The position numbers and the translations under genes are program-made. The notes beneath the pieces were generated by a model, which saw nothing but the letters and a program-made list of their open reading frames with translations, ran no database searches and was not told where the DNA came from. From a virus, in IMG/VR virus record IMGVR_UViG_3300021579_000042, positions 1 through 23,399 of that record: a DNA stretch of 23,399 bases; one strand, written 5' to 3'. Below are positions 2,410-20,388 of the stretch, piece after piece. Position 1 is the first letter of the stretch. Every line of letters starts with the position of its first letter.

Positions 2410-2754
2410 ATGAAAAAATACTTTCTTTTATTATCTATACTCTTTTTGTCGTTTAATTCTTTTGCAATAATTAGCAATACGTTAACGACAATGACCGCCA
2501 CAACCACAAGCACCCTTGCCTTGGCGGCGGATACTCAAAGAAAATATTTAATTATTCAAAATAGAGGCGCTTCGGGAAGTGCTACGGTTTATGTAAAGTT
2601 TGGAAGTGCCCACACAGGCACAGAAGGAATAGAGATTGTCCCAGGCGGTAACTATGAACCCTATTGGGCACCCTACAATTCAGTTTATATTGAGTCATCT
2701 ACCAGCACACAACAAGTGCAAATATATAGCGGAACGGGTGACAGGACTCCTTAA
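2410..2754 (+). CDS. Small exported beta-rich protein, probable virion or fibre component
   Basis: The 114-residue protein starts with a type I signal peptide (MKKYFLLLSILFLSFNSFA, cleavage expected after Ala19). The mature part is rich in Thr, Ser and short beta-type stretches (TTMTATTTSTLALAADTQRK, VYVKFGSAHTG, VYIESSTSTQQVQIYSGTG). This matches small beta-sandwich phage decoration or fibre-knob proteins, which commonly read as a surface-supplied coordinate protein, but phage proteins of this kind usually have no signal peptide. AAGG at 2401-2404 is the ribosome site. Two bases separate it from the small terminase gene. It contains no cysteine. Function is inferred from composition only. 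Confidence 0.65.
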   Translation: MKKYFLLLSILFLSFNSFAIISNTLTTMTATTTSTLALAADTQRKYLIIQNRGASGSATVYVKFGSAHTGTEGIEIVPGGNYEPYWAPYNSVYIESSTSTQQVQIYSGTGDRTP

Positions 2755-2756
2755 TT

Positions 2757-3161
2757 ATGACCGAAATAAGCGAATACCGACCTGAATACTGTGAATTATT
2801 AATAAAACATATGAAAAATGGTTTTACCTTTAACTCATTTGGCGCTGCTATTAAGGTGCCGATGAGTGAAGTTGATAGGTGGGAACAACTTTACCCAGAA
2901 TGGGCACGATATAAAGACATTGCCCAATCTTGCTTGCTCTATCATGACGAAGAATTGCTAAAAAATGGAACCACTGGCGAGCTAGAAAAATTTAAAGCAT
3001 CATCACATATCTTTAAAATGACCGCCGTTCACGGTTGGAAAACGAATTTTGAAATAGCCCACAAGGGCGAATCGATTGAGCAATACATAAAAAGAATTAA
3101 AGACGCTTCTGTAATTGATATTCCAAGAAATGAAATCTCAAAAAATCCAGAGGTTTTATAG
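2757..3161 (+). CDS. terS: Terminase small subunit
   Basis: The 134-residue protein opens with YRPEYCELLIKHMKNGFTF, followed by FGAAIKVPMSEVDRW and LYPEWARYKDIAQ. That is the helix-turn-helix pattern typical of phage small terminase subunits, in which the first domain (about residues 8-60) recognises the packaging site on DNA and the rest forms the ring that hands DNA to the large subunit. The length fits the family. It has no signal peptide, unlike its two neighbours. It lies almost 4 kb before the large-subunit gene (7121-8761), with fibre and cargo genes between them; adjacent placement is more usual. Confidence 0.75.
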   Translation: MTEISEYRPEYCELLIKHMKNGFTFNSFGAAIKVPMSEVDRWEQLYPEWARYKDIAQSCLLYHDEELLKNGTTGELEKFKASSHIFKMTAVHGWKTNFEIAHKGESIEQYIKRIKDASVIDIPRNEISKNPEVL

Positions 3162-3195
3162 TTTGGACGCTATCAATCGAGGCAAAGAGGTTTAA

Positions 3196-4152
3196 TTGAA
3201 AAAAATATTATTTCTACTTTTTGTTATTTCTTTTCAGGCGAATGCATATCTCTCAAGTAGTGGGGGCGGTGGAGGGTCTGGAACAGTTACAAGCGTTTCG
3301 GTGACAACCGCTAACGGTGTTTCTGGGTCGGTTGCCACAGCAACAAGTACGCCAGCAATAACCCTGACACTTGGTGCGATTACTCCAACAAGTGTTACCG
3401 CCACAGGTGAATTATTTTCTAAGTCTACTTTAAAGTTAACCACTGGCCCCGTGGGGGTTTCGGGCGACACAAATCTTTGGCTAGGAAGGAATAGTGGAAC
3501 AACCGCAACAAGTGGAACCTATAATATTGCTATCGGCGATACGGCCATGGGGCAATGTACGACATGTCTTCAAAACGTTGCCATTGGGTTTGAAAGTCTT
3601 TTAGGGCTAACGACCCTTGCCTCTGAAAACGTGGCGGTAGGGCATACGGCAGGACGGTCAAATACCTCTGGCGTTTCAAATGTTTATATGGGAAAAAACA
3701 CCGGGTATCAAAATAGTACGGGCGACCATAACACCGCAATTGGGACTAGTGCCCTTTTTAACAATACGTCTTCAAACAATACGGCAATTGGTTACAATGC
3801 AGGGATAACAAACGCTGGCCAATCGGGTAGTGTATTCTTGGGATATCTTGCAGGATTCAATTCTTCACAGAGCAATATCTTATTTATTGGAAACAATTCC
3901 TCTGGGGCAGGCTCTAAATTAATTACGGGTGATTTTGCTAACACCAAGGTCGGAATAAATATCGATCCGGCATCTATCCCCACCTCTGCCGCACTTATGG
4001 TTAACTCCACCACTGGCGCTTTTATGCCACCAAAAATGACCACCACCCAAAGGGATGCACTAACCCCGGTTTCGGGAATGGTTATTTTTAATATCACAAC
4101 AAATAAACTGAATGTTTATACCACTGCTTGGGAACAGGTAACATCGATTTAG
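3196..4152 (+). CDS. Exported fibre protein with YadA-head-like repeats, paralogue 1
   Basis: The start is a TTG at 3196 with AAGAGG upstream (3185-3190). The first 17 residues form a signal peptide ending QANA. A glycine run (24-28) leads into GTVTSVSVTTANGVSG, a motif seen in many phage tail fibres. From about residue 110 to 235 there are eight units ending in IAIG, VAIG, VAVG, VYMG, TAIG, TAIG, VFLG and LFIG at 16-18-residue spacing, as in the trimeric YadA head fold. The C-terminal part (PPKMTTTQRDAL, then GMVIFNITTNKLNVY) is a common fibre tip element. A CxxC (121, 124) lies in the repeats. It probably forms a trimeric fibre. The signal peptide sets it apart from ordinary tail fibres and resembles secreted trimeric fibre adhesins of Bdellovibrio; no membrane anchor is visible. 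Confidence 0.75.
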   Translation: MKKILFLLFVISFQANAYLSSSGGGGGSGTVTSVSVTTANGVSGSVATATSTPAITLTLGAITPTSVTATGELFSKSTLKLTTGPVGVSGDTNLWLGRNSGTTATSGTYNIAIGDTAMGQCTTCLQNVAIGFESLLGLTTLASENVAVGHTAGRSNTSGVSNVYMGKNTGYQNSTGDHNTAIGTSALFNNTSSNNTAIGYNAGITNAGQSGSVFLGYLAGFNSSQSNILFIGNNSSGAGSKLITGDFANTKVGINIDPASIPTSAALMVNSTTGAFMPPKMTTTQRDALTPVSGMVIFNITTNKLNVYTTAWEQVTSI

Positions 4153-4167
4153 GACGGTGCAACTATA

Positions 4168-5040
4168 ATGAGATTTCTATTATTTTTTTTGTTATCGTTT
4201 AACTGCCATTCAAAACTAAGTGACACTACTGTGCCGTCTTCGCTTGGCGCTACCACCTTTGATACCGATATCTATCTCGGGAAAAGACAAGGATTAAGGA
4301 ATACCTACCTTGGACTAGACGCTGGGTTAGACACCCAATCGGCGGCAACAAGCAATATAGGAATAGGTTACGAAGGGCTAAAGAGAATCACCACCGGCGG
4401 TTCAAATATCGGCATTGGTTATCGAGCAACCGTTCACACAACTACAAGCAGCAACAACATTGGAATAGGCACAGACGCTCTAGGTTTAAATGTGAGCGGT
4501 TCAAACAACGTCGGCACTGGTGTCGGCGCTGGCTACCAGTTAACAACCGATAATAATACTGCCATTGGGTCAAGTGCCTTGTTTAACGCCACAAGTGGAA
4601 ACGGCAACAATACTGCCATTGGAAAGTACGCCTCTATCTTAAACACCACTGGCGCTTATAACACCTCATTGGGCGTCGAGAGCGCCTACTCAAATCAAGC
4701 CGGGTCATCAAACGTTAGCATTGGTTATCAGGCAGGCTATAATAGCACCGCCTCAAGTGTCCTTTATATTGGAAACGCTTCAAGCGGAGTGGGGTCAAAG
4801 CAAATCACTGGTAACTTTGCCACTGGGCAAGTTGGCGTCAACATCGACCCCGGTTCAATAAACCCCGCCGCTATTTTACAGGTTAACTCAAATTCAATGG
4901 GTGTTCTTTTGCCCAGGGGAACCACAGCGCAAAAAAATGCGATTACAAATCCGCCTGAAGGTTTAGAGTTTTACGACACTACTTTACACAAAAAATGCGT
5001 GTTTACTGGGTCGGTTTGGGAAGTAATAACATCGGGCTGA
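4168..5040 (+). CDS. Exported fibre protein with YadA-head-like repeats, paralogue 2
   Basis: The 290-residue protein starts with a hydrophobic signal sequence (MRFLLFFLLSFNCHS) and continues with about ten units carrying IGIG, TAIG, TSLG, VSIG or LYIG in the same spacing as its upstream neighbour. Both proteins share a conserved stretch near the C-terminus: GSKLITGDFANTKVGINIDP in the first and GSKQITGNFATGQVGVNIDP here, and both end in a TT(A)QR/KxA..P..G fibre-tip element. They are tandem paralogues, but this one lacks the glycine run and the GTVTSVSV lead. The gene starts 15 bases after the first. The region FNCHSK is not a proper lipobox. It is likely to form a homotrimer or a heteromer with paralogue 1. 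Confidence 0.75.
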   Translation: MRFLLFFLLSFNCHSKLSDTTVPSSLGATTFDTDIYLGKRQGLRNTYLGLDAGLDTQSAATSNIGIGYEGLKRITTGGSNIGIGYRATVHTTTSSNNIGIGTDALGLNVSGSNNVGTGVGAGYQLTTDNNTAIGSSALFNATSGNGNNTAIGKYASILNTTGAYNTSLGVESAYSNQAGSSNVSIGYQAGYNSTASSVLYIGNASSGVGSKQITGNFATGQVGVNIDPGSINPAAILQVNSNSMGVLLPRGTTAQKNAITNPPEGLEFYDTTLHKKCVFTGSVWEVITSG

Positions 5041-5042
5041 TT

Positions 5043-5213
5043 ATGACCATTTTATTTATTTTTATAATATTGTTACTTATTTTCGGAATTGCTGCCTTGT
5101 TTTTTGGCGTTTTTAAAATTGCCATGCTTGGATTTGTTAGTTTTACCCTTGCGGTCGTTATTATTTTAATTTCAAAAAATAAATTCAAAAAGGAAAATAT
5201 AAATGAAAAATAA
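5043..5213 (+). CDS. Small two-helix membrane protein, function unknown
   Basis: A 56-residue product with two hydrophobic segments (TILFIFIILLLIFGIAALFF and MLGFVSFTLAVVIILIS) and a basic tail. The frame is open further upstream, to 4995, but a start there would overlap the fibre gene by 46 bases; the ATG at 5043 just behind the fibre stop is preferred. It ends 11 bases inside the next gene. Two-helix proteins of this size occur as holins and as small accessory membrane proteins. Its position between fibre genes and a lipoprotein glycosidase suggests an envelope role. No family recognised. Confidence 0.55.
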   Translation: MTILFIFIILLLIFGIAALFFGVFKIAMLGFVSFTLAVVIILISKNKFKKENINEK

Positions 5214-6009
5214 ACTTATCGTTTTACTATGTCTTATTATTGCATCTTGCGCACACAAAGAAGTTGATGGCCCAATAATTGTTTTACATGAAGACCCGGT
5301 TATTTTGCCCACGCCTGCACCTATCGAATCAGTAAAGTGGAAAATTCCGCCTGTAAATGCAAAATTTCAGATTATGGACGAGGACGACGGGGACTATGTT
5401 AAACAACTTAAACCCGACACAAAAGTCGTCAATGTCGAATTATTTGGCACAGACTTAAAAAGGAATCAGGCGCTAAAAGCAAAGGGCGTTTATCTTGTTT
5501 GTTATTACTCGCTGTCAAAAGAAAAAGACAGGCCCGACACCGACCAATATCCAAAAGACGCCGTTGGCGCCAAGATGTCAGGATGGGATGAGCTATGGCC
5601 TATTCTTGAAAAAGAGTCACTTCATTTATTTATGGATAAAAGAGATCAACTTGCAAAAGATATTGGTTGCGATGCCGTCGAGATCGACAACATGGACAAC
5701 AACAACAAGGGCGCAAAGTCAGTTGTTATGAACTCCTTAATTAGGCGAGCGAAAAGCGCCCATGAAAAAGGCTTAGGATTAATCGCCAAAAACACCGGGG
5801 AATATTCAAAAGAAATTTCTATTTATAGTGACGGCGTTTTTGTGGAAGAGTGTCGTGCTAAAAAAGAATGCGACAACTATCTTCCATGGCAAGGAAAGTT
5901 TGCGGGCTTTGTCGAGTATTCTAAATCGGATGCGAAATGTTTGCCGTGGGGACAAGTGCAATATCATGCTCATGGTTATTTCACTGCCGATTATGGTGCA
6001 TGTAAGTAA
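5203..6009 (+). CDS. Lipoprotein glycoside hydrolase, GH114-like (endo-alpha-1,4-polygalactosaminidase type)
   Basis: The protein begins with a lipoprotein signal, Ile13-Ala14-Ser15-Cys16, so it should be lipid-anchored in the envelope. The remainder matches the GH114 TIM-barrel plan: a KWKIPPVNAKFQIMD start (46-59), VYLVCYYS (96-103), CDAVEIDNMD (156-165) with the probable acidic active-site residues, LIAKN (193-197), and VEECRAKKEC followed by GFVEYS (214-240), which parallels the family's EeC...EY segment. GH114 enzymes hydrolyse alpha-1,4-linked galactosamine polymers such as those in fungal galactosaminogalactan and, in the related PelA domain, the Pel polysaccharide. The length (268) fits the family. 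Six cysteines remain in the mature part. A membrane-bound depolymerase inside a phage fibre block is unusual; possible roles are clearing extracellular polysaccharide for release or altering the host surface. Confidence 0.75.
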   Translation: MKNKLIVLLCLIIASCAHKEVDGPIIVLHEDPVILPTPAPIESVKWKIPPVNAKFQIMDEDDGDYVKQLKPDTKVVNVELFGTDLKRNQALKAKGVYLVCYYSLSKEKDRPDTDQYPKDAVGAKMSGWDELWPILEKESLHLFMDKRDQLAKDIGCDAVEIDNMDNNNKGAKSVVMNSLIRRAKSAHEKGLGLIAKNTGEYSKEISIYSDGVFVEECRAKKECDNYLPWQGKFAGFVEYSKSDAKCLPWGQVQYHAHGYFTADYGACK

Positions 6010-6031
6010 AATTTAAAAAAGGGGATAGTCT

Positions 6032-6412
6032 ATGGCTTTAGAGACATTAAAAGGGATTAAGAAATTAGGTGAGTTTGAAGTTCTATCTGAAAGACCTAAA
6101 AAAGAAGATGGTTCAGTTGATTGGAATTTGTTTGATGAACAAAGAAAGAGCAAACCAATCTATATAGATCATGATGTCAATATGATCTCTTTCCGTATTC
6201 AAAATGGCCCAGTAAAAGAGCACGGAATAAATGGTTGTCAGGTTGACACTATAATTGAAGCAGCAAAAACAATTATTGAGGGTCTAAATAAGAATTTTCC
6301 TTGCCGTGAAAACGCAATAGTTATTACGAAATTAGATGAAGCTCTAATGTGGTTAAACAAAAGAAAACAAGATCGAATCCAAAGAGGCGTTGAAGGGTTA
6401 AATAAAGCATGA
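6032..6412 (+). CDS. Tad1/Acb2-like cyclic-nucleotide sponge candidate (anti-Thoeris/anti-CBASS)
   Basis: The C-terminal two thirds of this 126-residue protein match the conserved Acb2/Tad1 hairpin domain: an NGPVKEHGINGCQVDTIIEA element (58-77), then FPCRENAIVITKLDEALMWL (89-108) and DRIQRGVEG (114-122). Acb2 and Tad1 are phage proteins that bind and hide signalling nucleotides: Acb2 takes up the cyclic oligonucleotides of CBASS, and Tad1 takes up the cyclic ADP-ribose isomers of Thoeris. Residues 1-57 form an acidic-basic N-terminal part that I cannot assign. It has no signal peptide, which fits a cytoplasmic role. AAAAAAGGGGAT upstream is a strong ribosome site. It is part of the cargo block before the terminase. 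The family call rests on remembered motifs, and the ligand cannot be told from the sequence. Confidence 0.72.
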   Translation: MALETLKGIKKLGEFEVLSERPKKEDGSVDWNLFDEQRKSKPIYIDHDVNMISFRIQNGPVKEHGINGCQVDTIIEAAKTIIEGLNKNFPCRENAIVITKLDEALMWLNKRKQDRIQRGVEGLNKA

Positions 6413-6633
6413 ACGCCGAAGTAGTTTACAACAACAAGACTCAATCTTTTCGATGCACAGAATATAAAGATATTAAGGAAACACTAAACACTTATGGCCC
6501 GTATGAAATTAGAGGCCTCATGGTGCGAGTTTATGGGCCGTCGGGAATGCACCCAGAACACTTAAAAGACTTGCTAGAGCTAAATCACCACGCCGTAGAA
6601 AAAATCGCAAAAGAGGGGCAGATATGGCAATGA
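6409..6633 (+). CDS. Hypothetical protein
   Basis: A 74-residue protein, overlapping the preceding gene by four bases (ATGA) and the following one by ten. It is a mixed alpha/beta sequence without membrane segments or signal peptide (for example YGPYEIRGLMVRVYGPSGMH). The overlaps on both sides make it a credible coupled gene. I recognise no family. Small proteins in this position next to anti-defence genes are sometimes anti-defence proteins themselves, but nothing in the sequence shows it. Confidence 0.6.
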   Translation: MNAEVVYNNKTQSFRCTEYKDIKETLNTYGPYEIRGLMVRVYGPSGMHPEHLKDLLELNHHAVEKIAKEGQIWQ

Positions 6634-6992
6634 GGGGATTTTCAAAATATAGGGCAATTAAAACCAAACGAGACGGCTTTACCTTTGATTCAAAAATGGA
6701 GGCCGAATATTACGACCTGTTAAAATTGAGAGAAAAAGCTGGCGAAATTGCCATTATCGGTAGACAGTGCAAGGTTTATTTAACCAATGCCAAGATTTTA
6801 ATGAAGCCTGATTTTATTGTTAGAGATTTGAAGTCGCAAGAAATGTATTACATCGAAGTAAAGGGCGTTAAAACTTCAGACTTCGCTATCAAACTTAGAT
6901 TATGGGAACATTACGGCCCAGCGCCGCTATTGCTTGTTGAAACAAACAGGGGCAAGATTATAAAAGAAACACTTTATAAAGTAACTTTATAA
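6624..6992 (+). CDS. DUF1064-like PD-(D/E)XK nuclease
   Basis: The 122-residue protein has the DUF1064 layout: a KYRAIKTKRDGFTFDSKMEA start (8-27) with conserved acidic residues Glu26 and Glu28, then MKPDFIV (60-66, Asp63) and YIEVKGVKT (76-84, Glu78 and Lys80). Asp63 with Glu78-x-Lys80 is the PD-(D/E)XK active site. DUF1064 proteins are phage nucleases thought to act on branched or recombination intermediates, often placed next to packaging genes. GAGGGG upstream favours the ATG at 6624; an alternative ATG at 6630 would give the usual ATGA overlap with the previous stop. The gene is the last of the cargo block before the hairpin and the large terminase. Confidence 0.75.
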   Translation: MAMRGFSKYRAIKTKRDGFTFDSKMEAEYYDLLKLREKAGEIAIIGRQCKVYLTNAKILMKPDFIVRDLKSQEMYYIEVKGVKTSDFAIKLRLWEHYGPAPLLLVETNRGKIIKETLYKVTL

Positions 6993-7010
6993 AGATTAAA
7001 AGGGGTATAT

Positions 7011-7061: not shown

Positions 7062-7080
7062 TCTTTTCCAAATGAAGTAT

Positions 7081-7115: not shown

Positions 7116-7120
7116 AAAAA

Positions 7121-9506: not shown

Positions 9507-9610
9507 TTCTTGATATTTCTAACTTCTATATCGGTTTTATGTTGAAAATACATTGAAAAAATATCGCAAATAAATACTCCGGCCAGCATAACACAAATAA
9601 CCACAACCAT
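9494..9610 (-). CDS. 38-residue single-pass membrane protein
   Basis: Reading from ATG 9608-9610 to TAA 9494-9496, the product begins MVVVICVMLAGVFICDIFSM, a good transmembrane helix, followed by a charged tail ending KNHLK. Its ATG overlaps the stop of the gene at 9610-10137 by one base (TAATG), which is a strong sign of coupling. It forms a two-gene leftward cassette with that gene, placed between the large terminase and the portal. Function unknown. Confidence 0.5.
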   Translation of the reverse strand: MVVVICVMLAGVFICDIFSMYFQHKTDIEVRNIKNHLK

Positions 9611-10137
9611 TAGTTCCCCAGCGGCATAAATTGAGACGCCCATGTGGCCAGAGCAATAATTGAAATAAAGAGCATAAAAAATAGTGCTAACTCAAAATCA
9701 ATTTTACCGCCATTTGTTTCGCTGGCCATGGAGATATCTTTTTCAATTGATTCAAATTTTTCTTGGTCTCTAAGAAAACGAACCGTTCCCTCGTCTAACC
9801 CGCCAGCAATTTCGGCGGTCTGTTTTACTGTTTCGTCATCCCAAAACTCTGTCTTTTCTTCTTTATATTGAGGCGGGGCACTTGACCCAGATTCATGCAG
9901 GCCATTTTCTTTGAGGTATTCCCGATAGTGTTTAGGGCCTCTAAAATTCATTTTCAAGCTGTCGTGATAACCAAAACCGTCGAATGCTTTTTGTTTTTTC
10001 TTGCGAGTGCCGCGACTCTGATTATAACCGTCTTGAGTAATTTCGACGCCGTTTTCGATAGAGTATGTTTGAGCTTCTTGGGGGGTTTTCCAACCAAATT
10101 CACCGTCGGAAAATTCGTATTTGTAATACATCGTCAT
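9610..10137 (-). CDS. Tail-anchored membrane protein, function unknown
   Basis: The 175-residue protein has a hydrophilic N-terminal part (MYYKYEFSDGEFGWKTPQEA), a highly charged middle with the stretch KHYREYLKENGLHES, and one C-terminal transmembrane helix (FELALFFMLFISIIALATWA) with nearly no tail after it. This makes it a tail-anchored protein with its body in the cytoplasm. No clear ribosome site is seen; the alternative ATG at residue 3 is equally possible. The following 38-residue membrane frame is overlapped by one base. The leftward orientation in the middle of a rightward virion region and the divergent promoter-like repeat at 10178 suggest separately regulated expression, for example an exclusion or lysogeny-type function, but no family is recognised. 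Confidence 0.6.
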   Translation of the reverse strand: MTMYYKYEFSDGEFGWKTPQEAQTYSIENGVEITQDGYNQSRGTRKKKQKAFDGFGYHDSLKMNFRGPKHYREYLKENGLHESGSSAPPQYKEEKTEFWDDETVKQTAEIAGGLDEGTVRFLRDQEKFESIEKDISMASETNGGKIDFELALFFMLFISIIALATWASQFMPLGN

Positions 10138-10234: not shown

Positions 10235-12277
10235 ATGAAAAAATTAGATGCAGAAATCGAAAACGATTTAGAAGAAATTGACGTCGTCAAAAAGGTTGAT
10301 CGCTTTTTTAAAGAGGCGAAAGACTATCGCTCAAATTTCGAAAGCGAATGGGAAGAACAGCAAGAATTTTATAATGGCCAACAATGGCCGCTGGACTCTC
10401 AAGATCGCCCTTTTATTAATAAGTGTTTCGAAGTTGTTCAAACTGAAGAACCACTTTTAACAGATTCAAAACCCGCCACTGACGTCATTCCTTTTGACAT
10501 GGACGATGACGAGCAACAAGAAAAAGCGAAAATGCTCAACGCTGCAAAAGATGCGGTTTATACCTCTCAGTGCCTTCAACAAAAAGATGCCATGTCGATC
10601 AACAAGGCACTTCAGTCGGGCACCGCTTTTCAGTATGTAGATTGGAATCCCGATTTATATAATGGAGAGGGCGACGTAACCGTAAAAAATATCCCATGGG
10701 AACAAATTTTCGCCGACCCCGCCGCTACCGAGATTGATGAGGCCAGATATTTTGGCGCAAAATTCCCGGTAGATATCGAAGAACTAAAAAGAAGATACCC
10801 AGGGAAAGCGGAAGAGATTGAAGAAATTACTCCGGACTTCGATACAAAAGCGCCCACTCACATTGACGAAGACCAAAACCTAAGACAGTACACCGGAAGA
10901 ATGGGGATTAGTGACCGCTATAAATCGGACTCGATCACCGTTTTAGATGTTATGTTTTTTAAAGACTATACAATGGTCGATATTTCAGAAGAGGAAACGC
11001 AATCTGAAATAGCAAAAGAGTCGCTTGAGTTACAGCAAGGTATTAATCCAGATATTTCAAAAGAAGACGACCATGTAAAGCATCTTGATGGCCACAGAGA
11101 ACAAAAATATTTTATCGCCGCCGCTGCATTACAAGTGCCAGCCGAGCAAGTAACAGAAAAAGACATTGAGGCACTAGAAGAAGACGAGAAAATCGGCCTA
11201 ATCTTAAAGATAATTGATGACCACATAGATATGCACGAATCAATATATGCGGCAAGCCCTCTTGATTCTGGAAAACGTCCTAAATATAAAAATTTCATGA
11301 GATTGGTCACTAAAACCGGAAGCAAGATTTTATATGACGGCCCCGCCCCGGTTGATGACGGTCTATATCCCTTTGCTATTTTCTATGCTCATAAAGACGA
11401 AGATAGTTTTTTTGGAACGGGAATTTTAAAAAATGTTATTCCGCTAAATAAAGCTATTAACGAAAAATATTATGCCGAATATGTTGGCCTTCAGAGAAAT
11501 TCTAATAGCGGGTGGATAGTTGACGAAAATTCAAACGTTGACGAAAACACGCTAACCAATGACCCCGGACTAGTTGTAGTTAAGCGAGCGGGAAGCGAAG
11601 TTTCAAGAATTCCACCTGGCGAAGTTTCGCCACAGCTTGCCCAGAGTATGGGCAATGATAATGCCTTCGTTAAAGAGATTACAGGTCTAGGAAGTGCAAT
11701 TCAAGGAACCGCCCCTAGCGATGATCCAAGTGGTGAGGCCATCAAAAGAATGATGATGCAACAACTTGGCAGAGTTAGATCAAAATCAAGGTGGCTTGAA
11801 GAGTATTCAATTCCAAGAAGAGATAGATTAATTATTTCAAGAATTATTAAATATTATTCCACTGAAAGAAAATTAAGAATTTATGATGACAGCGGTAAAA
11901 TTCGCTATATCGATTATCGTCCAGAAATGATTAAAGGGTTTGATTATGACCTAGTTATTTCACCAGGAACTTCTGGAAGCTATGACAAGCAAACTATTTA
12001 TGTAATGGCACAACAAATGTTAGGACTTGGAATAATTGATGCTAAGACATTTATTGAAATGACGAATCCTCCTTATAGAGGGCGAATTTTAGAGAGAATA
12101 GCCTCAAGAGATCAAGACAAAACAATGATGCAAAATCTAATGCAAGAAAACTTGCAGCTTAAGGCGCAATTTGCCCCGCAAGCACTGACACCGGAAGAAA
12201 TAAAATTGTTGCAAAACAGTGGGTCAACCACTGAGCAAAATAATGGAGTCGCACAAGCGACCAACCAAGGAATGTAA
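10235..12277 (+). CDS. Portal protein, P22-like
   Basis: The 680-residue protein carries the start expected of the P22-type portal family: a helical N-terminus leading to FYNGQQWP (45-52), then PFINKCFEVVQTEEPLL (59-75), a stretch INKALQSGTAFQYVDWN, and the IPWEQIFADPAATEIDEAR region. The portal forms the dodecameric ring at one capsid vertex through which DNA is packaged and released and to which the adaptor binds. The C-terminus is rich in Gln, Asn and Met (about 635-680) and could be a crown-barrel segment. The ATG has no Shine-Dalgarno sequence and lies nine bases after the -10-like TATAGT, so the mRNA may be nearly leaderless. The scaffold-like gene follows two bases after the stop. Confidence 0.85.
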   Translation: MKKLDAEIENDLEEIDVVKKVDRFFKEAKDYRSNFESEWEEQQEFYNGQQWPLDSQDRPFINKCFEVVQTEEPLLTDSKPATDVIPFDMDDDEQQEKAKMLNAAKDAVYTSQCLQQKDAMSINKALQSGTAFQYVDWNPDLYNGEGDVTVKNIPWEQIFADPAATEIDEARYFGAKFPVDIEELKRRYPGKAEEIEEITPDFDTKAPTHIDEDQNLRQYTGRMGISDRYKSDSITVLDVMFFKDYTMVDISEEETQSEIAKESLELQQGINPDISKEDDHVKHLDGHREQKYFIAAAALQVPAEQVTEKDIEALEEDEKIGLILKIIDDHIDMHESIYAASPLDSGKRPKYKNFMRLVTKTGSKILYDGPAPVDDGLYPFAIFYAHKDEDSFFGTGILKNVIPLNKAINEKYYAEYVGLQRNSNSGWIVDENSNVDENTLTNDPGLVVVKRAGSEVSRIPPGEVSPQLAQSMGNDNAFVKEITGLGSAIQGTAPSDDPSGEAIKRMMMQQLGRVRSKSRWLEEYSIPRRDRLIISRIIKYYSTERKLRIYDDSGKIRYIDYRPEMIKGFDYDLVISPGTSGSYDKQTIYVMAQQMLGLGIIDAKTFIEMTNPPYRGRILERIASRDQDKTMMQNLMQENLQLKAQFAPQALTPEEIKLLQNSGSTTEQNNGVAQATNQGM

Positions 12278-12279
12278 AG

Positions 12280-13380
12280 ATGACTGAAGAGGTAACACAA
12301 GAATTATCAACCGAAGAAAGTCCCAGTGCGGATTTAGGGAACAACGCCGATTCAGGCGATTCCGATTTTCAATCTGCCCTCGATGAGGCGGGAATTTCAG
12401 AGGAAGATATTGAAGGCGAAGGTGTCTCGGCCAAGGATTTTGACAAGAATGTCCAATCTGAAAAGAAGACAAAAAAAATCTCGGCAAAAGAAAAGGCAAA
12501 TGATGACATCTTAAAAAACATCTTAAAAGAGGCCCAAGGGCCCGAAGATGAGGAACACGAGGACTTGCCAGAAAACGATGAGGATATCGAAGAAAAGGCA
12601 GCAAATGACCCGCTTTTAGGCCAGATTAATAAAATGAATCTGTCAGAAGACGGTGAAAAATTCAACGTTAGTTCAAAAGAAGAACTAAAAGAGTTAGTCC
12701 AAAAAGGAAAGAATTATACCAAAAAAACGCAAGCACTATCAAATGAGAAAAAAGAATTTGAGGCGTTAAAAGAACAGGCCATTACAGAGTATAATAACTC
12801 TACAAAGGCACTTCAAGAAAGTGCAAACAAACATCAAGAAGAATTAAAACAATTTCAAGTGTGGGACTTAGCTTTACAGCAAATTGCACAAGATGACCCA
12901 GATTTATATCAGGAACTACAGAATAGGGTAAAACAATCGACCAGGTTTTTTGAAAACCCGGTGGCGAATGCTCAATTTAGAATGCTAAATGAAAAAATAG
13001 CACACCTAGAGCAAGGCAATAAAGCACGTGAGAGCGAAAATGTTCAAAAACAATTTGATATTGAGATGCAATCTTTTGCGCCTCAAATTTCGCAAATTGA
13101 AAAAGAATTATCCATTAAGGTTGACCGTGAAAAGGTCTTAGCTAAATGGAAAGCTTTAGGCGGCACGGTTGCAGAGGCCATTGGGGCACTTTACGCTGAT
13201 AATATTTTAAAGATGAGAGCTTCGAGGTCTAAGGTTGAAAAAACTAACCGACAAGTAAACTCAATGAAGGCGGGCGGAGTGCCAAGAAGAGGCGGAGGCG
13301 CAAGCTTAAAACCGTCTAAGGTAGATTGGAATCAGCCCCTTGATAAAATTGTAGGTCAACTTTCGCAAATGCTTGGCTAG
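12280..13380 (+). CDS. Scaffold-like acidic coiled-coil protein
   Basis: The 366-residue protein lies between portal and major capsid protein, the usual place of the scaffolding gene. It has a very acidic N-terminal third (ESPSADLGNNADSGDSDFQ, later EDEEHEDLPENDEDIEEK), a helical glutamine- and lysine-rich middle with coiled-coil character (about 135-260), and a basic, glycine-rich C-terminus (SMKAGGVPRRGGGASLK). An acidic head, helical middle and basic tail is the known plan of scaffolding proteins, in which the basic end contacts the capsid protein. No protease signature is seen. The assignment rests on position and composition. Confidence 0.75.
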   Translation: MTEEVTQELSTEESPSADLGNNADSGDSDFQSALDEAGISEEDIEGEGVSAKDFDKNVQSEKKTKKISAKEKANDDILKNILKEAQGPEDEEHEDLPENDEDIEEKAANDPLLGQINKMNLSEDGEKFNVSSKEELKELVQKGKNYTKKTQALSNEKKEFEALKEQAITEYNNSTKALQESANKHQEELKQFQVWDLALQQIAQDDPDLYQELQNRVKQSTRFFENPVANAQFRMLNEKIAHLEQGNKARESENVQKQFDIEMQSFAPQISQIEKELSIKVDREKVLAKWKALGGTVAEAIGALYADNILKMRASRSKVEKTNRQVNSMKAGGVPRRGGGASLKPSKVDWNQPLDKIVGQLSQMLG

Positions 13381-13404: not shown

Positions 13405-14367
13405 ATGACAATTTCAATTACACAACTAAACGCTATTACTCACGTTTTGGTTTTAAAAAAACTAACCAATAACGTTTACAACACTAACCCGCTCTTAAAA
13501 AGACTTTATGAAAATAAAGTGCTTTTAGACGGTGGTACAAAAATCGGCGCGCCTGTAATCAGTGGTGCATCTGACAGTACTACTGGAGGGTTCTATACTG
13601 GTATGGCCAATTTAGATTCTTCAGAAAAAGACGATATCACCAGAGCAGAAGTTAACTGGAAGCAATTCCATGAGACTGTGTTGATCTCTCGTGCTGATAT
13701 TTTAAAAAACTCAGGTTCAATGCAACAATTGAATCTTGTTAAATCAAAAATTACCGTAGCAGAAATGAGAGCTAAGGCAAAACTTGCACTAGGTCTTTAT
13801 TCAGACGGTACAGACACAGAAAAATTTAACGGCCTTCAAGAAATTATCAATCTAACAGGGGCTTATGCTGGCCTTGCGGTCAGTGATATTCTTGACGAGG
13901 CAGGGGCGAATGCTTGGATTCCAGTAATTAAATCAAATTCTGGGACTTCACGCTCGCTTTCTCTTTCTTTGGTTCAACAAGCAATGGGTGCCACTGCTTA
14001 TGACGAAGATAGGGTTTCTTTGGCCGTTTCAAAACAAAACGTTTTTGACGAGCTATGGAACCTTCTTTCTCCACACCAAAGACTAATGACAGACGATAAA
14101 ATGTCTGGAATGGGATTTGAAGGAATTTTAAAATATAATGGAATCCCTTTCATTGTTGATTCACACATGAAAGCAGGGTCATTCTATTTTGTTAACGAAA
14201 ATCACTTTAAAATGTACGTTCATAAAGACGAAGACATGAGAGTGCAATCTTTTGACCAATTGGAAAACCAAAACGGTATCAAGAGACGTGTACTTCTTAT
14301 GGCAAACTTTCTTTGCGATGCTCGCCGACAATTGGCAGAGCTTGCAGATATTGCCGTGGCTTCATAG
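13405..14367 (+). CDS. Major capsid protein
   Basis: GGAGGG upstream is a near-perfect ribosome site, as expected for the most abundant virion protein. The 320-residue sequence follows the HK97-fold type without a prohead protease delta domain. The opening NNVYNTNPLLKRLYENKV is followed by a GGTKIGAPV strand, the WKQFHETVLISRADILKNSG region (85-104) and FNGLQEII (141-148), features shared by many podovirus and siphovirus capsid proteins of this type. It is followed by a stem-loop and a decoration-like gene. A single cysteine is present. The protein forms the hexamers and pentamers of the head shell. Confidence 0.85.
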   Translation: MTISITQLNAITHVLVLKKLTNNVYNTNPLLKRLYENKVLLDGGTKIGAPVISGASDSTTGGFYTGMANLDSSEKDDITRAEVNWKQFHETVLISRADILKNSGSMQQLNLVKSKITVAEMRAKAKLALGLYSDGTDTEKFNGLQEIINLTGAYAGLAVSDILDEAGANAWIPVIKSNSGTSRSLSLSLVQQAMGATAYDEDRVSLAVSKQNVFDELWNLLSPHQRLMTDDKMSGMGFEGILKYNGIPFIVDSHMKAGSFYFVNENHFKMYVHKDEDMRVQSFDQLENQNGIKRRVLLMANFLCDARRQLAELADIAVAS

Positions 14368-14396: not shown

Positions 14397-14437
14397 TATA
14401 TTGTTTTTAAAAAATGTTTTTATAAGGAGAAAATTAA

Positions 14438-14926
14438 ATGAAAAAACTAATCAACTTTTTTATGTTAACCGTGTTAACGCTTTTTGTGTTTAACACTCAC
14501 GCTGCACAAGAGGCAGAAAACTCTTTTAACGGCGACGGCACAGTAAAGACGCTAAAAAAAGAAGTTACTTTTGTTAAAAGTACTCATGACGTGTCTTTAA
14601 CTTCAGGGTCGGCAGTTTGTTACGACGAGACATTAGACGATGCAATTTCAGTTAAGAAGTGCGGGGTCGAGGGTCAGTACGCTGCTTGTATGCTATTAGA
14701 GACTTGTGCCGCTGGCGCTCTTTGTCGCTGCCTTGAAAAAGGATATACAGACATTCTTCAGTACGACGGCTCTGGCGACGGTTCAACCGCTGGCCAGGCA
14801 ATTTATGTTGGAACGACTGGGCGTTTTGTTGCAAAACATACACCAACCGTTAAATATAAAATCATCGGGGAATTCTTGAACAGCTCTACTACTTCAGGGT
14901 CTGTTAAAGCTTTTGTGAATTTCTAA
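14438..14926 (+). CDS. Exported cysteine-rich protein, probable head decoration (DUF2190-like)
   Basis: The 162-residue protein directly follows the major capsid gene, the usual place of a decoration protein. It starts with a type I signal peptide (MKKLINFFMLTVLTLFVFN, cleavage expected after Ala22-23). The mature part has a beta-rich pattern (GDGSTAGQAIYVGTTGRFV, then IIGEFLNSSTTSGSV) close to the DUF2190 family of capsid decoration proteins. Six cysteines (61, 75, 84, 90, 96, 98) lie in a 38-residue central segment, whereas the capsid protein has one. AAGGAG is the ribosome site, and the stop overlaps the next start in TAATG. The signal peptide and cysteines suggest passage through the periplasm, hard to reconcile with cytoplasmic head assembly. 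Confidence 0.65.
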   Translation: MKKLINFFMLTVLTLFVFNTHAAQEAENSFNGDGTVKTLKKEVTFVKSTHDVSLTSGSAVCYDETLDDAISVKKCGVEGQYAACMLLETCAAGALCRCLEKGYTDILQYDGSGDGSTAGQAIYVGTTGRFVAKHTPTVKYKIIGEFLNSSTTSGSVKAFVNF

Positions 14927-16206
14927 TGAAGTTAGGTTTATTCTGGGGGATTGCAGTAATGCTTTCCCCCTTTGTTATTTTGTTTCAAGAAAATATAGAT
15001 GTTAGAGAGCATCAAAACATTTTCTTTTGGTTTGCTTCAAGTGCATCAATATTTTTTTATGGGACAAAAAACGTTTACAAGGTTTTACCGGCCACTCTTC
15101 TTTGTGGGGTTTTCGTAGTTTTATCTTTTTTAACCCAGGTTTCAATTGATGCTACGTCTTTCCCTTATGTAATATCACAGTACATATCAATTATTTTAGG
15201 TTCTATTTTAACCATTCAACTTATCTCTAATTTTAAAAAACAAGACGGTGACATTGTTATTTGGTTTATTGGTCTTGTTTGTTTTGCTGAAAGCTTTTGG
15301 ATTATTCTAAATAGCCTTGGCGTTGACCCTTATCAAATTATTTTATCACTTTTTAAAAATACATACTCTGCAAAATTTCTTTCAAATGAAGAATGGATAA
15401 GCTCTATTGGGAAAAGCGTTCCAGTGGCCGGAAGCCTACTTCAAAACACATTGTCTGGGGCACTGGTAGCAATCTCATTGCCAGGTCTTTTTACCCCGAT
15501 GACAATCCCTCTTTTAGCATTCCCAATTTATGCTCTTTATTTGTGTAAAAGTGCAATGGCATGGGGGACGTTTATAGTGGTAATCCTCGGGTATTTATGC
15601 ACTTATTATAAAGTAAAATTAAAGCTTATATTGCCACTTGTGACTGGCGCTTTAATGATATCTGCCGTTTTAATAAACACAACAAAATTTTTTAGCGACA
15701 GTGAAAGGTTTTTTGCATGGAAAGCAATCTTAAACATTCACAACATGGAAAACACCGTTAACCTTAGAGTTTTAAAATATAAAAGAAGTCTTGAGGCATA
15801 CGGTTCAAAAGAATTACCCGAAATGATCGAGATTAAAAAAATTCAAGGTGAGCGAGAATTTTATAAAAATTTAATCATTGGTGGCGGCCCTGGGTGGCTA
15901 GAAAGTGTTGGCCTTAGGATAGGACTAGTTCAGTGGTTGCCTTCGCATAACGAATACCTAGAGGTTTTCAATGTTTTTGGAGTTATTGGGATTACATCTA
16001 TTTTCTTATTTGCTACTTGGCTTTTGTTTAACTTTAAAATGTTTTATGAAAATCCGAAATATTCGGCAATATTTTTCGGTATAATGGCAAATTCATTTGG
16101 CAATTTTCCCTGGCACATATCACCAATCGCTATACTGGGAATAGTTTCCCTGGCAATAATTTTATCTAATCAAGGAGAGAAAAATGGCACTATCAGTTTC
16201 GTCTAA
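14926..16206 (+). CDS. Polytopic membrane protein, O-antigen polymerase/ligase (Wzy/WaaL) family
   Basis: The 426-residue protein is almost wholly hydrophobic, with about ten or more membrane helices (for example 5-22, 53-72, 78-100, 110-130, 195-225, 232-252, 353-370, 400-415). It carries the marks of the O-antigen ligase/polymerase family: GSLLQNTLSG (169-178), RFFAWKAI (261-268), IIGGGPGW (317-324) and SHNEYLEVFNVFGVIG (340-355) in the periplasmic loop before the last helices, with His341 the expected key residue. Such proteins join or polymerise lipid-linked sugar units of lipopolysaccharide. It starts in TAATG overlap with the previous gene and overlaps the next by 23 bases, so it is embedded in the virion operon. 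A role in serotype conversion or superinfection exclusion is inferred; the substrate is unknown. Confidence 0.75.
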   Translation: MKLGLFWGIAVMLSPFVILFQENIDVREHQNIFFWFASSASIFFYGTKNVYKVLPATLLCGVFVVLSFLTQVSIDATSFPYVISQYISIILGSILTIQLISNFKKQDGDIVIWFIGLVCFAESFWIILNSLGVDPYQIILSLFKNTYSAKFLSNEEWISSIGKSVPVAGSLLQNTLSGALVAISLPGLFTPMTIPLLAFPIYALYLCKSAMAWGTFIVVILGYLCTYYKVKLKLILPLVTGALMISAVLINTTKFFSDSERFFAWKAILNIHNMENTVNLRVLKYKRSLEAYGSKELPEMIEIKKIQGEREFYKNLIIGGGPGWLESVGLRIGLVQWLPSHNEYLEVFNVFGVIGITSIFLFATWLLFNFKMFYENPKYSAIFFGIMANSFGNFPWHISPIAILGIVSLAIILSNQGEKNGTISFV

Positions 16207-16465
16207 ACAGACATCTAACATTCCTTTAAGTGATGTTTATTTAAAGGTTCTAACTATTTCTTTTGCCGGTGTTACAAGCGGTGTCTTGGCAACCGCCGAT
16301 CATGGATTCCAAAACATTGTTGGGGCATGGTTTGTTAACAATACCACTGAAGATTTGGGCCTTTTAAAAATAAATTCAAACGGTTCAACCACTGTTAGGG
16401 GTTCAATTAGTATTGCTCAAGTAACCTCAAACGATATTGGCCAATTGTTTATTTTGGGTAACTAA
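16184..16465 (+). CDS. Small virion-operon protein, function unknown
   Basis: A 93-residue beta-type protein rich in Ser, Thr and Val (MALSVSSKQTSNIPLSD, ending SNDIGQLFILGN). It has no signal peptide and no cysteine. AAGGAG lies properly upstream, supporting the start even though the frame begins 23 bases before the end of the polymerase-like gene. Position between decoration, polymerase-like and adaptor genes suggests a small head or head-completion protein. I do not recognise the family. Confidence 0.6.
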   Translation: MALSVSSKQTSNIPLSDVYLKVLTISFAGVTSGVLATADHGFQNIVGAWFVNNTTEDLGLLKINSNGSTTVRGSISIAQVTSNDIGQLFILGN

Positions 16466-16477
16466 TAGGGGTATCCT

Positions 16478-17455
16478 ATGGGCTGGAACGGTTCAGATTT
16501 TATTGATGAGCTATCCGCAAAACTTGGTGACACCTCGACAACGTTCGAGGCGAGGGTTTTGATCTGGCTTAATGACGGCATAAAAGACATAGCCACAAGA
16601 CATAATTGGTCTTTTCTTAGGGTCAAGGGCAAAAAGGTTTTGACCGCTGCCGCCGAAGAGCAAGATTTAAGCCTTGGAACGCCAAGCGCACCGACACTTG
16701 CTGCCTTGGCGGGCGGCTCACTTGTTGCGTCTTCGGTTTACAAGGTTTTGGTAACTTTTTACGAGTCAACAACCAAGCACGAGAGCGTTTCTGGAACGCC
16801 GTCGGGGGCAATAACCCCGTCAGGCGGAAACCTCTCAATAACCGTTTCGGCAATCCCAGTTAGCTCAGACCCGCTAGTGACAGAAAGAAGAATTTATCTT
16901 TCAAAAGACGGCGCTGCTTATTATTATTATTCAACAATTTCAAACAACACCTCGACGACAACAACAATTACCGCGCCGACAACGAGTACAGAGTCTCCAC
17001 CCGATGAGCATTCGATAAAATGCCTTGATGGCAATCCTTTTATTGAAAATAGCCGCCAGTTAGATTTTGTGTCACGCGAACAAATGATAATGGCAATCGG
17101 TGCAAGATTTGCCTCGGGAACGCCACAAAGTTGGTGCGACCTTCAAGAAGAAAAAATACTTTTATATCCAAAACCGTCAACCGCACTGACATTAAGTTTT
17201 TATTACTATCGAATTCCAAGAAGGGTTTATAATACAATTTCTTCGGTAATCGACATACCAGAATGGTTAAAGCCAGACCTGGAAAGATATGTAGTGTGGC
17301 GTGGTTTTGAATATCGCGACCGTGACGGCCAAGAATCTAAGCAATCTAATTATGAAACAATGATTAATCAGACAATTTCTCAAAAGGGAACGCTTAAAAA
17401 GACACCCAGAAGAGTTAGAGACGTTATTGGGAATACAAGGAAGCAGATAGTTTAG
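16478..17455 (+). CDS. Head-tail adaptor protein with inserted Ig/FN3-like module
   Basis: The 325-residue product begins with a helical adaptor-type region (DFIDELSAKLGD, ARVLIWLNDGIKDIA, HNWSFLR; about 7-50) like the P22 gp4/SU10 adaptor class, which docks under the portal and closes the head. The C-terminal half (IPEWLKPDLERYVVWRGFEY, then YETMINQTISQK) is again typical of that class. Between them, from about residue 70 to 175, lies a beta-rich module (GGSLVASSVYKVLVTFYEST, then SGGNLSITV, ERRIYLSKDGAAYYYYSTIS, TAPTTS). A nearly identical-length module occurs in the next gene (138-243). The insert probably lies on the outside. The stop is followed eight bases later by the next start. Confidence 0.7.
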   Translation: MGWNGSDFIDELSAKLGDTSTTFEARVLIWLNDGIKDIATRHNWSFLRVKGKKVLTAAAEEQDLSLGTPSAPTLAALAGGSLVASSVYKVLVTFYESTTKHESVSGTPSGAITPSGGNLSITVSAIPVSSDPLVTERRIYLSKDGAAYYYYSTISNNTSTTTTITAPTTSTESPPDEHSIKCLDGNPFIENSRQLDFVSREQMIMAIGARFASGTPQSWCDLQEEKILLYPKPSTALTLSFYYYRIPRRVYNTISSVIDIPEWLKPDLERYVVWRGFEYRDRDGQESKQSNYETMINQTISQKGTLKKTPRRVRDVIGNTRKQIV

Positions 17456-17462
17456 GGGGAAA

Positions 17463-19367
17463 ATGCCATTAGCTAGACGGGCGATAAAAAACATTAAAGA
17501 CTTTGCAGTGCCAGTTAGTTTTAAGATTGGCGAGCAAAAAAACCGTCTAAGGGACGCCTTAAATGTTTATTCTAACCAAGGTCGGCTTGAAACGAGATTT
17601 GGCGAATCAAGATTTAACTCTACGTCCCTGGGTGGTTCTCCACTTTCAGTTTCATTTTTTAAAAAAACCGATGGCACCTCATACCTTATCGCAAAAGTAG
17701 GCACTGTTATTTATAAGGTTAACTCAACGGGGGCAGCGACTTCTTTAAAAACCGGACTAACTGCCACCACAAAACACCGAGGGATAACTTTTAACGATAG
17801 GCACATTATTTCGGTGGAAAACGACGGTTTATATTCTTATGACGGCACAACGTTTACCCAATTGGGGCAAGCAGTCCCAGCAAGCTATACCGCTACAATC
17901 GGGGCCGGGGGGTCACTTGTTGACACAAATAAATATAAAGTTTCAGTTACCTATTATTCGTCAACAATTGGATTTGAATCAAATGGCACAGTCTCTAGCG
18001 AAGTAACCGCAAGCGGGGGTAATTTACAGGTAAACCTAACAGGGCTACCGACAACCGCCGCAAATGCTTTTATAGATAAAAAAAGAATTTACATAAAAAA
18101 CACAACTTCAAATAGCGGCTATCTTTATGTTGCCGAAATTGATCTGGCCACGGCGACTTATTCGATAACCGCACCGCCAACTAGCGCCGTCGTAGTGCCT
18201 ACTACTCACGCCACCCCAATTACTGGAGGTGGAAAATATATTACAGAGTTTAATAGAAAATTGGTTTACGCCGGAAACGCCAACTATAAAAATGATGTCT
18301 TTTTTTCAGAGGAAGATTTGCCGGATGCTTTTGACGACACCGCCACAAGCCTGGTACTAAACGCCTCAGAAAATGGGGATGTTACCGGAATAGCCACAGG
18401 TCTTTATAATAATAGCGTACTTGAACCATACCTTGTTATTTTTAAGAAAAAATCAGTCCAAATCTATTCAGAGGTAGGTGGAAGCGGACGCCTTGTCGTT
18501 ATTAATAAGGGAGTTGGTTGCGCTTCACATGACACCATTGCAGTTAAAAACGGCGACGTTTATTTTTTAAGCGAAAAAGGGTGGAGAGTTATCTCAAACG
18601 GGCGTCTTCTTGCCGACCAACTTGGCAACCCAATAACTCTCGGGAACGGGGACATTGATGACATTTTTACCTCAAAGGGTTTCGTTTATGAAATAAATAG
18701 AGCAACGCTATCGGGTGCCTTTTCGGTTTATTACCCCACGCTAGATCAATATCTCACATGGGTAGGAGAAGGCCTAAATACATCGTTTTCAAAAGTGTAT
18801 AACTACGAATTTTATATCGGCGGATTTAAGCCTTATCAATTTGAGTTATCTGCCACGTGTGCTTGCCTTGGCGAAGATAGCTCGGGACGTGAGGCAGTTT
18901 TATTTGCCGATAGTTCTGGTTATATTCATTCGCATTCAATTCACGAGTCTAGATCAGATAGAGACTCGGCGAATACAGAGGTCGCAATAAGTGCCTATGC
19001 CCAGCTTTTTTGGATGCCAGAAGACGGCGACTTTGATGCTAGTTATAACTTCAGAAGTCTTTTGATTAGGGCCATTTCTAGCTCGTACACTTTAACCGTA
19101 AAAACTTGGTTAAATTTTAATATTAATAACCTAGCAAGTTATGATTACACGTTCCCCGACCCCACAAGCGGATTTATTTTAGATACCTCGGTTTTAGACG
19201 TTGATATTTTCGGCGACGATAGGGCCATAGTAACCTCGCCACCGCCCCACGATATTAACCGAGTCGGGGAATCAATGCTCATCGGTTTTTACCAGAGTAC
19301 AATTTATGCAAACATGAATCTATTAAGCGCACAGTTAAACATATCCAAAAACGGTATAAGGAATTAA
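17463..19367 (+). CDS. Tail nozzle/hub-like protein with shared Ig/FN3-like module
   Basis: The 634-residue protein follows the adaptor, the position of the P22 gp10-type nozzle or hub protein. The N-terminus (QKNRLRDALNVYSNQGRLETR) and the repeated strand pattern (LIAKVGTVIYKVN, GLYSYDGTTFTQLG, KKKSVQIYSEVGG, FLSEKGWRVISNG) fit a beta-propeller that stabilises the tail tube and plugs DNA. The insert at about 138-243 (GGSLVDTNKYKVSVTYYSST, SGGNLQV, KKRIYIK, SITAPPTS) is homologous to that in the adaptor. No signal peptide and few cysteines (three). The ending NISKNGIRN leads after four bases into the next gene. The exact family name is inferred from position and pattern. Confidence 0.7.
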   Translation: MPLARRAIKNIKDFAVPVSFKIGEQKNRLRDALNVYSNQGRLETRFGESRFNSTSLGGSPLSVSFFKKTDGTSYLIAKVGTVIYKVNSTGAATSLKTGLTATTKHRGITFNDRHIISVENDGLYSYDGTTFTQLGQAVPASYTATIGAGGSLVDTNKYKVSVTYYSSTIGFESNGTVSSEVTASGGNLQVNLTGLPTTAANAFIDKKRIYIKNTTSNSGYLYVAEIDLATATYSITAPPTSAVVVPTTHATPITGGGKYITEFNRKLVYAGNANYKNDVFFSEEDLPDAFDDTATSLVLNASENGDVTGIATGLYNNSVLEPYLVIFKKKSVQIYSEVGGSGRLVVINKGVGCASHDTIAVKNGDVYFLSEKGWRVISNGRLLADQLGNPITLGNGDIDDIFTSKGFVYEINRATLSGAFSVYYPTLDQYLTWVGEGLNTSFSKVYNYEFYIGGFKPYQFELSATCACLGEDSSGREAVLFADSSGYIHSHSIHESRSDRDSANTEVAISAYAQLFWMPEDGDFDASYNFRSLLIRAISSSYTLTVKTWLNFNINNLASYDYTFPDPTSGFILDTSVLDVDIFGDDRAIVTSPPPHDINRVGESMLIGFYQSTIYANMNLLSAQLNISKNGIRN

Positions 19368-19371
19368 AAAC

Positions 19372-20388
19372 ATGAAAAAACTTTTTTTATTGCTCTCATT
19401 AATTTTTACGACAAACATTTTTGCCGGAACGTGTACTAGCATTTCTCGGTCAAATAACGGTTCAGGAACGGTTTTAACGGCGAGCAAGTATAATACCGAT
19501 ATAAATACCGCCTATACGGCCATAAATGCTTTTGACGGCGGGTGTATCACCGACGGCACCCTGGAATTTGCGGCGCTAAATAGCTCGGACTTTGCCTCGG
19601 TATTCAATGCCATTCAACAAGGCTGCAAGGTTAGCTATTCAGACACCAATACAATTTCGGTAGGCAAATGCATTGCCGCTGTTAACGGTTATAATATTAG
19701 AACAACTTCCTCAAATACCGCCGCATGGGGGTGCTCTGGGTGCTCTAGCGAAGTCTCGTCTACCCAATATTATGTTTATATAAAAACGGGTTCTACTGGG
19801 ACAACTTTAAATTTATTAATATCCACAACCGCACCAAATGAAGACGGTTACGACAATAGCTCTAATAAAGTTTTGGCAAGATTTTACAACAATTCTGCAA
19901 GCGACATAGACCAATACTCAATCGATCAATGGGTTATAAATAAATTTATTCCACAAAATGCCACCAACGTTTTTTATACTCCTACCTTTGTCGGCCTTGG
20001 AACCGTAGGCCCAGCATCAAACAATTGTTCATACTCTCGTCGTGGCGCTTTGATGTTTGGAGATTGTTATTTAACATTTGGGGCCACCACGGCCACGGTA
20101 GCATCGATGTCATTGCCTTCGGGTCTTGCAATTGATTCGTCTAAATTACAGCTAAACAACACCACTGCAAATATTGGGCAAAAAGTTGGCGACGCCGTAA
20201 ACAGAAACTCGGGGTCGGGGGCGTATTCTTCAATTTTGACAGCTACTGGGACTAGCACTACCTTGCTTTATTTTTCTAACATGCTGGGGGCGTCTGCCTA
20301 TTTAACGCCAGCAAATGGAAGTGTTTTTACCAACGGTGAACCGATATCATATACGTTTAGAATTCCGATAGCAGGCTGGTTAGACTAG
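19372..20388 (+). CDS. Exported cysteine-rich fibre-like protein
   Basis: The 338-residue protein starts with a signal peptide (MKKLFLLLSLIFTTNIFA, cleavage after Ala18). The N-terminal mature part (GTVLTASKYNTDINTAYTAI) resembles fibre stem segments that attach to the tail. The C-terminal part from about 201 (FYTPTFVGLGTV, then RRGALMFGDCYLTFGATT and SLPSGL) is a known fibre knob pattern. Eight cysteines (21, 58, 85, 100, 121, 124, 219, 232) remain in the mature protein, an even number consistent with disulfides. It lies between the hub and the internal protein genes, the usual place for a tail fibre, but the signal peptide is unusual for a protein built into a cytoplasmic virion. Confidence 0.7.
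   Translation: MKKLFLLLSLIFTTNIFAGTCTSISRSNNGSGTVLTASKYNTDINTAYTAINAFDGGCITDGTLEFAALNSSDFASVFNAIQQGCKVSYSDTNTISVGKCIAAVNGYNIRTTSSNTAAWGCSGCSSEVSSTQYYVYIKTGSTGTTLNLLISTTAPNEDGYDNSSNKVLARFYNNSASDIDQYSIDQWVINKFIPQNATNVFYTPTFVGLGTVGPASNNCSYSRRGALMFGDCYLTFGATTATVASMSLPSGLAIDSSKLQLNNTTANIGQKVGDAVNRNSGSGAYSSILTATGTSTTLLYFSNMLGASAYLTPANGSVFTNGEPISYTFRIPIAGWLD

Follow-up and report, generated by a model that had tools for sequence, protein, structure and literature searches.

Signal peptides and paired cysteines in cement-fold and tail-fibre proteins of an uncultured, podovirus-like phage family

The virion gene module and its relatives

The window analysed here is the whole of the IMG/VR record IMGVR_UViG_3300021579_000042 (23,399 bases), which is probably a fragment, as its last gene runs off the end. 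Its plus strand carries a virion module in which two proteins are predicted to be exported by the Sec system: a capsid-cement-fold protein of 162 aa (14438–14926; signal peptide (SP) 14438–14503, mature part 14504–14923) and a tail fibre or receptor-binding protein (RBP) of 338 aa (19372–20388; SP 19372–19425, mature part 19426–20385). They lie among core virion genes that encode no SP and serve as controls, namely those of a portal of P22/SU10 type (10235–12277; PF16510, 4.8e-32), a scaffold-like protein devoid of cysteine (12280–13380), the major capsid protein (13405–14367; PHROG 9953, 1.8e-37), a connector (16478–17455) and a nozzle/head-closure-like protein (17463–19367; PHROG 8040). A membrane enzyme with multiple transmembrane (TM) segments, of the Wzy_C type (WaaL/PglL superfamily; 14926–16206), is paired with the cement gene, and a small structural-module protein without SP is encoded at 16184–16465. 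All five open reading frames (ORFs) named in the original prediction, at 2410, 3196, 4168, 14438 and 19372, are present.

Syntenic loci were gathered from IMG/VR with a profile of the nozzle gene, in two partly overlapping sets (22, then 33 loci), and a cement profile made from the closer subset of cement homologs brought further ones. These loci are metagenome assemblies, and the homolog counts given below contain some near-duplicate contigs. Nozzle identity across the syntenic relatives is 39–57%. Most loci share the order portal, scaffold, capsid, cement (SP), Wzy_C enzyme, small protein, connector, nozzle and fibre (SP), and both the gene order and the SPs of the window recur in L002, the divergent relative that was found first. 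No close relative was found among 50,697 annotated phages, against which the cement, Wzy and fibre homologs gave zero tblastn matches. The capsid protein is 22–28% identical to those of Mx8/Mx9, Stenotrophomonas phage BUCT555 and some environmental phages. Mx8/Mx9 and BUCT555 (26–28% identity) also have a similar module order, but the structural genes of Mx9 and BUCT555 are without SPs. The family consists of tailed, podovirus-like, uncultured phages. Phage integrase genes (PF00589) are found in the records of L011 (G002) and L024 (G007), two relatives without the cement and Wzy cassette, and part of the family is therefore probably temperate. The only contig obtained from two genome scans, CAKZRU010000190.1 (locus L028, 43% G+C), belongs to an uncultured Myxococcales metagenome-assembled genome; a search of 379 genomes of the same phylum gave no second comparable match and one weak partial match (E 5e-13). 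Given its G+C content, this contig may be misbinned, so that a Myxococcales host assignment is uncertain.

The AlphaFold2 (AF2) model of the mature 14438 protein is of high quality (predicted local distance difference test, pLDDT, 89). When compared by VIA, it matches the head protein of HFTV1 (8qsy, Z 15.1) and the cement or head-fibre proteins of Sf11, Pam3, TW1 and phi29 (gp8.5; Z 11–12.6), further those of FCWL1, T1, E217 and XM1 and, more weakly, lambda gpD (Z 6.8). Nearly all of its top PDB matches are thus capsid decoration or head-fibre proteins. At the sequence level, the 15-row cement alignment is highly diverged. The window protein does not match PF09956, which is matched by 4 of 15 homologs (25.2 bits for L023 against a cut-off of 24, with L003 at 23.9), and some homologs match the head decoration PHROG 122. 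On the strength of the predicted model, the 14438 product is a capsid cement/decoration-fold protein. It shares fold, post-capsid position and size with known cement proteins (PF09956 Phage_cement_2/DUF2190; TW1, Pam3 gp6, the base of phi29 gp8.5, lambda gpD) but differs from them by a Sec SP and two to eight paired cysteines; to our knowledge, the known PF09956-type cement and decoration proteins are cytoplasmic. The post-capsid virion protein of Mx9 also differs, its homology to the cement protein being undetectable (hhalign, 0.2%).

The model of the 19372 protein is middling (pLDDT 67). Its confident middle domain matches the tropism determinant Mtd (Z 10.4), and its C-terminus resembles RBP or fibre knobs (Z 6–8), which would not be decisive alone. 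Two fibre homologs end in tail-collar fibre domains. Conservation is highest in the N-terminal domain, whereas fibre tips are swapped at the C-terminus. The gene is located directly 3' of the nozzle gene in every locus in which the fibre region is present. The 19372 protein therefore combines, within the limits of a middling model, an RBP-type fold with a conserved N-terminal attachment domain and a variable tip, and is, as modelled, a receptor-binding tail fibre. Domain folds, gene position and the conserved N-terminus with exchangeable C-terminus are shared with BPP-1 Mtd, the fibre of cyanophage A-1(L) and the RBP of TP901-1, whereas the SP and a conserved N-terminal cysteine pair set it apart from known receptor-binding fibres.

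Conservation of signal peptides and covariation of cysteines

A rule-based check for Sec SPs (n-region charge, h-region, AXA site or lipobox), which found six of seven textbook E. coli SPs, detects clear SPs at 2410, 3196, 14438 and 19372. The original prediction had assigned Sec SPs to five virion or fibre genes; this stands overall, with four clear SPs and a weak, ambiguous one at 4168. The N-terminus encoded there (MRFLLFFLLSFNC followed by HSK) has a poor lipobox and lacks an AXA site, and codon 21 is a GTG that could serve as start instead. Shine-Dalgarno-like sequences precede the SP starts of 14438 (AAGGAG), 19372 (AAGGA) and 3196 (AGAGG, before a TTG start). Beyond the SP, 19372 has no in-frame start that can replace its own, and 3196 has none before the GTG of codon 35. 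A misassignment of start codons was rejected on these grounds.

The SP is present in all 26 cement homologs and in 31 of 33 fibre homologs (two of the latter, L006 and L007, were judged by eye because the rule is too strict, and two more were called lipoprotein-type). The signal sequences vary freely among homologs, yet they remain hydrophobic and, in most homologs, keep an AXA-like end. None of the 171 terminase, portal, scaffold, capsid, connector and nozzle genes of these loci encodes an SP, barring one capsid ORF (L021) flagged through a misplaced upstream start. Likewise, the same detector flags no structural gene in Mx9, MW202489 and BUCT555, which are the annotated phages closest to the family. 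This conservation, the absence of SPs from the core genes and two homologs that precisely lack the SP (see below) rule out chance hydrophobic starts.

The cysteine numbers given in the original prediction are all correct on recount (8 in mature 19372, 6 in mature 14438, 1 in the capsid, 2 in the portal and 3 in the nozzle protein), and its restriction of cysteine enrichment to 14438 and 19372 holds, as 2410 and 3196 contain 0 and 2 and the mature part of 4168 contains 1. Across 18 dereplicated relatives, mature cement and fibre proteins have 2.58 cysteines per 100 aa against 0.43 in core proteins, a six-fold difference. Among proteins with any cysteine, even counts outnumber odd ones 26 to 2 for cement and fibre, against 29 to 46 for core proteins (Fisher p 4e-7), and in 23 aligned cement proteins the six cysteines (residues 61, 75, 84, 90, 96 and 98 in 14438) form three pairs, each kept or lost as a unit with no half pair (61–75, p 1e-4; 84–98, p 0.004; 90–96, p 1e-5), all these p values being optimistic since they assume independence of related sequences. 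The changes in these pairs happen in several clades. Both odd-count proteins are fibres (L018 and L024) that have the usual N-terminal pair and one extra cysteine in a tail-collar-type C-terminus.

The two fibres without SP, from L028 and L057, provide natural controls. At the point where the other fibres pass from the SP into GTCTSISRTN..., these two have their own N-termini, MSDSPISRSN... and MSSDLTRSN..., respectively. Their genes have a ribosome site, and the start lies a few bases 3' of the nozzle stop, so that a hidden SP does not fit. Homology of the L028 fibre is confirmed by hhalign (98%, E 2e-13). Both lack the two N-terminal cysteines that every SP-bearing fibre has, whereas L047, which is near L028 and L057 in the tree, keeps the SP and the cysteine pair. 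Based on these sequences, the SP and the cysteine pair of the fibre come and go together. The original prediction had stated that related phages encoding the same proteins without SPs would speak against export; L028 and L057 are such phages to the letter, but they favour export, because the cysteine pair is absent along with the SP. A lipoprotein reading of the fibre was rejected, since the conserved cysteine is mostly at +2 or +3, not at +1, and has a co-varying partner. As diverged relatives keep the SPs, the cysteines of a predicted disulfide vary in concert and two homologs lack both features, Sec export and disulfide formation of the cement and fibre proteins, as originally proposed, are strongly supported by comparative evidence.

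The Wzy_C enzyme and the other genes of the window

The Wzy_C profile (PF04932) is matched by 14 of 15 homologs of the enzyme (best 2e-13), the window member alone (0.074) being below the cut-off, and R261, W265 and H341 are invariant. None of the 15 matches the PglL_A motif (PF15864) at E 0.1; PilO likewise lacks PglL motifs (PMC3643930). The enzyme thus shares with WaaL, PglL and PilO the Wzy_C match, multiple TM segments, an invariant Arg and His and adjacency to the gene of an exported protein, but differs by its unmatched PglL_A motif and its location in a phage virion operon. The profile match is equally compatible with a ligase (WaaL), a polymerase or a protein oligosaccharyltransferase (OTase).

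In the loci examined, the enzyme is never seen without the cement gene, and both are jointly absent at three tree positions (L011; L016, L018 and L024; L028). Moreover, pglL and pilO adjoin pilin genes, so that the enzyme is encoded beside its substrate (PMC3643930). This co-occurrence and this analogy make periplasmic glycosylation of the cement protein by the adjacent enzyme a good hypothesis. Alternatively, the enzyme may be unrelated to the cement protein and may alter the host O-antigen (seroconversion), merely riding in the late operon. This proposal is narrower, as it concerns one part, and can hold together with the two-compartment explanation set out below. It draws on the inability of a family match to tell the three activities apart and on L079, which keeps the cement gene and lacks the enzyme. 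The joint losses and the pilin-like adjacency speak against it, as does the lack of any Wzy profile match elsewhere in the records of L011, L018 and L024 (that of L016 contains one unconvincing 13-bit match). Overall, seroconversion has a serious chance of being the right account of the enzyme, though somewhat short of an even one.

Homologs of the small 16184 protein in L002 and L015 have an SP grafted exactly before the SP-less start, while 16 homologs are without SP. The nozzle profile partly matches the connector and its relatives (about profile positions 130–248), which suggests a duplicated domain, and the connectors of L009 (7883–10000), L020 (5599–7668) and L072 (5642–7750) have an N-terminal extension of ~350–400 aa compared with other loci. 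Between the terminase and portal genes, a minus-strand gene (9610–10137; weak PHROG 30354) is kept in many relatives.

The three other SP candidates lie upstream on the plus strand. The gene at 2410–2754 encodes a small secreted phage-like protein of 114 aa without cysteine (SP cut after residue 19; weak PHROG 30212), for which phmmer found no relatives in the syntenic loci. A fibre-like protein with AIG-type repeats (3196–4152; SP MKKILFLLFVISFQANA; tail spike PHROG 4636, 1e-19) is followed by its paralog (4168–5040), whose SP is weak or ambiguous. Adjoining these fibre genes, 5203–6009 (plus strand) encodes a lipoprotein-type N-terminus (LIIAS followed by CAHK) ahead of a domain of glycoside hydrolase family GH114 (PF03537, 3.6e-31) and thus probably a phage-encoded exported glycosidase. 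Several relatives encode large SP-bearing distal proteins of 590–730 aa (L012, 8352–10157; L014, 17487–19619; L018, 17574–19358; L023, 20119–22308; L024, 18207–20045); those of L014 and L023 match tail-fibre PHROGs, and those of L024 and L018 contain ~20 and ~14 cysteines, respectively.

Proposed virion production in two compartments

Core parts carry no export signals, in contrast to the post-capsid cement protein and the post-nozzle fibre, which have cleavable-type Sec SPs and conserved cysteine pairs. Export of exterior parts only is what would be expected if assembly and filling of the particles took place in the cytoplasm and lysis allowed their completion. The explanation that we favour, with a confidence modestly above even, is that virion production is split between two compartments: of all virion parts, those on the exterior alone would leave the cytoplasm, undergo oxidation and join the particle at or after lysis. 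The process could be viewed as follows. Late in infection, the host Sec system would export the cement and fibre proteins, signal peptidase would cleave them and disulfides would form in the periplasm, where the adjacent Wzy_C enzyme may modify the cement protein. Meanwhile, DNA-filled particles would assemble in the cytoplasm. Lysis would then join the compartments, allowing cement to bind the capsid exterior and fibres to bind the tail; both would be exterior parts dispensable for DNA packaging, of a kind that can be added last. We infer their attachment to virions from the genes and their arrangement. A fuller version, in which the exported, disulfide-bonded parts are also glycosylated by a dedicated Wzy_C OTase before attachment at lysis, giving a glycoprotein-coated capsid, is tentative and rather unlikely as a whole.

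Three points weigh against split production. L028 lacks both exported features and L057 lacks fibre export, so that neither would be universally required; the nearest annotated relatives, Mx9 and BUCT555, have no exported structural proteins; and the cement protein might have been recruited to a role on the cell surface. The last point leads to the main rival of virion attachment, according to which cement- and fibre-derived proteins are displayed on the host envelope during infection, where they would mask receptors, exclude superinfection or act as decoys, and the Wzy_C enzyme changes the surface polysaccharide, while the tasks of the virion fall to other virion parts. The SP and disulfide evidence fits this equally, and phage-encoded conversion of surface polysaccharide is known. 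Bdellovibrio also exports phage-fibre-like MAT proteins with SPs (PMC10769870), but these are encoded by the bacterium for predation and do not come from a phage virion module. However, the fibre gene lies behind the nozzle gene and its product combines a conserved N-terminus with an exchanged C-terminus, as virion adaptors do; in L028 and L057 the same slot holds the same fibre minus its SP, which fits a virion part; and no other post-nozzle fibre gene filling that place was identified. Host-surface display is thus unlikely. Finally, it is very improbable that the hydrophobic N-termini stay uncleaved to anchor the proteins in the membrane or to serve in assembly as arms and that the cysteines are incidental, as the N-terminus of 4168 with its lack of a good cleavage site might suggest, given the good AXA-like sites of most homologs despite diverged sequence, the even cysteine counts with strict pair covariation and the SP-less fibres that lose exactly the SP and the cysteine pair.

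Export of virion proteins has a precedent in filamentous phages: pIII and pVIII of M13 are exported with SPs, and pIII has disulfides. The coat proteins of these phages resemble the window family in being SP-exported virion proteins but differ in assembly route, as filamentous phages are extruded through the membrane and have no tailed capsid, portal or lysis. Searches of the open-access literature (PubMed Central, PMC) for exported virion parts, SPs of decoration proteins and phage OTases found nothing relevant, and the export of exterior parts is apparently a route undescribed for tailed phages in this literature. The component parts are of known kinds; the assembly route would be categorically new if attachment to the virion after export is true.

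Tailed phages are taken to assemble wholly in the cytoplasm. Conserved export of a cement protein and a receptor-binding fibre, if true, would break this rule, and the split of virion production between two compartments predicts cleaved N-termini, mapped disulfides and a glycan on one protein. A lytic phage would then have its environment-facing parts oxidised, and perhaps glycosylated, in the periplasm.

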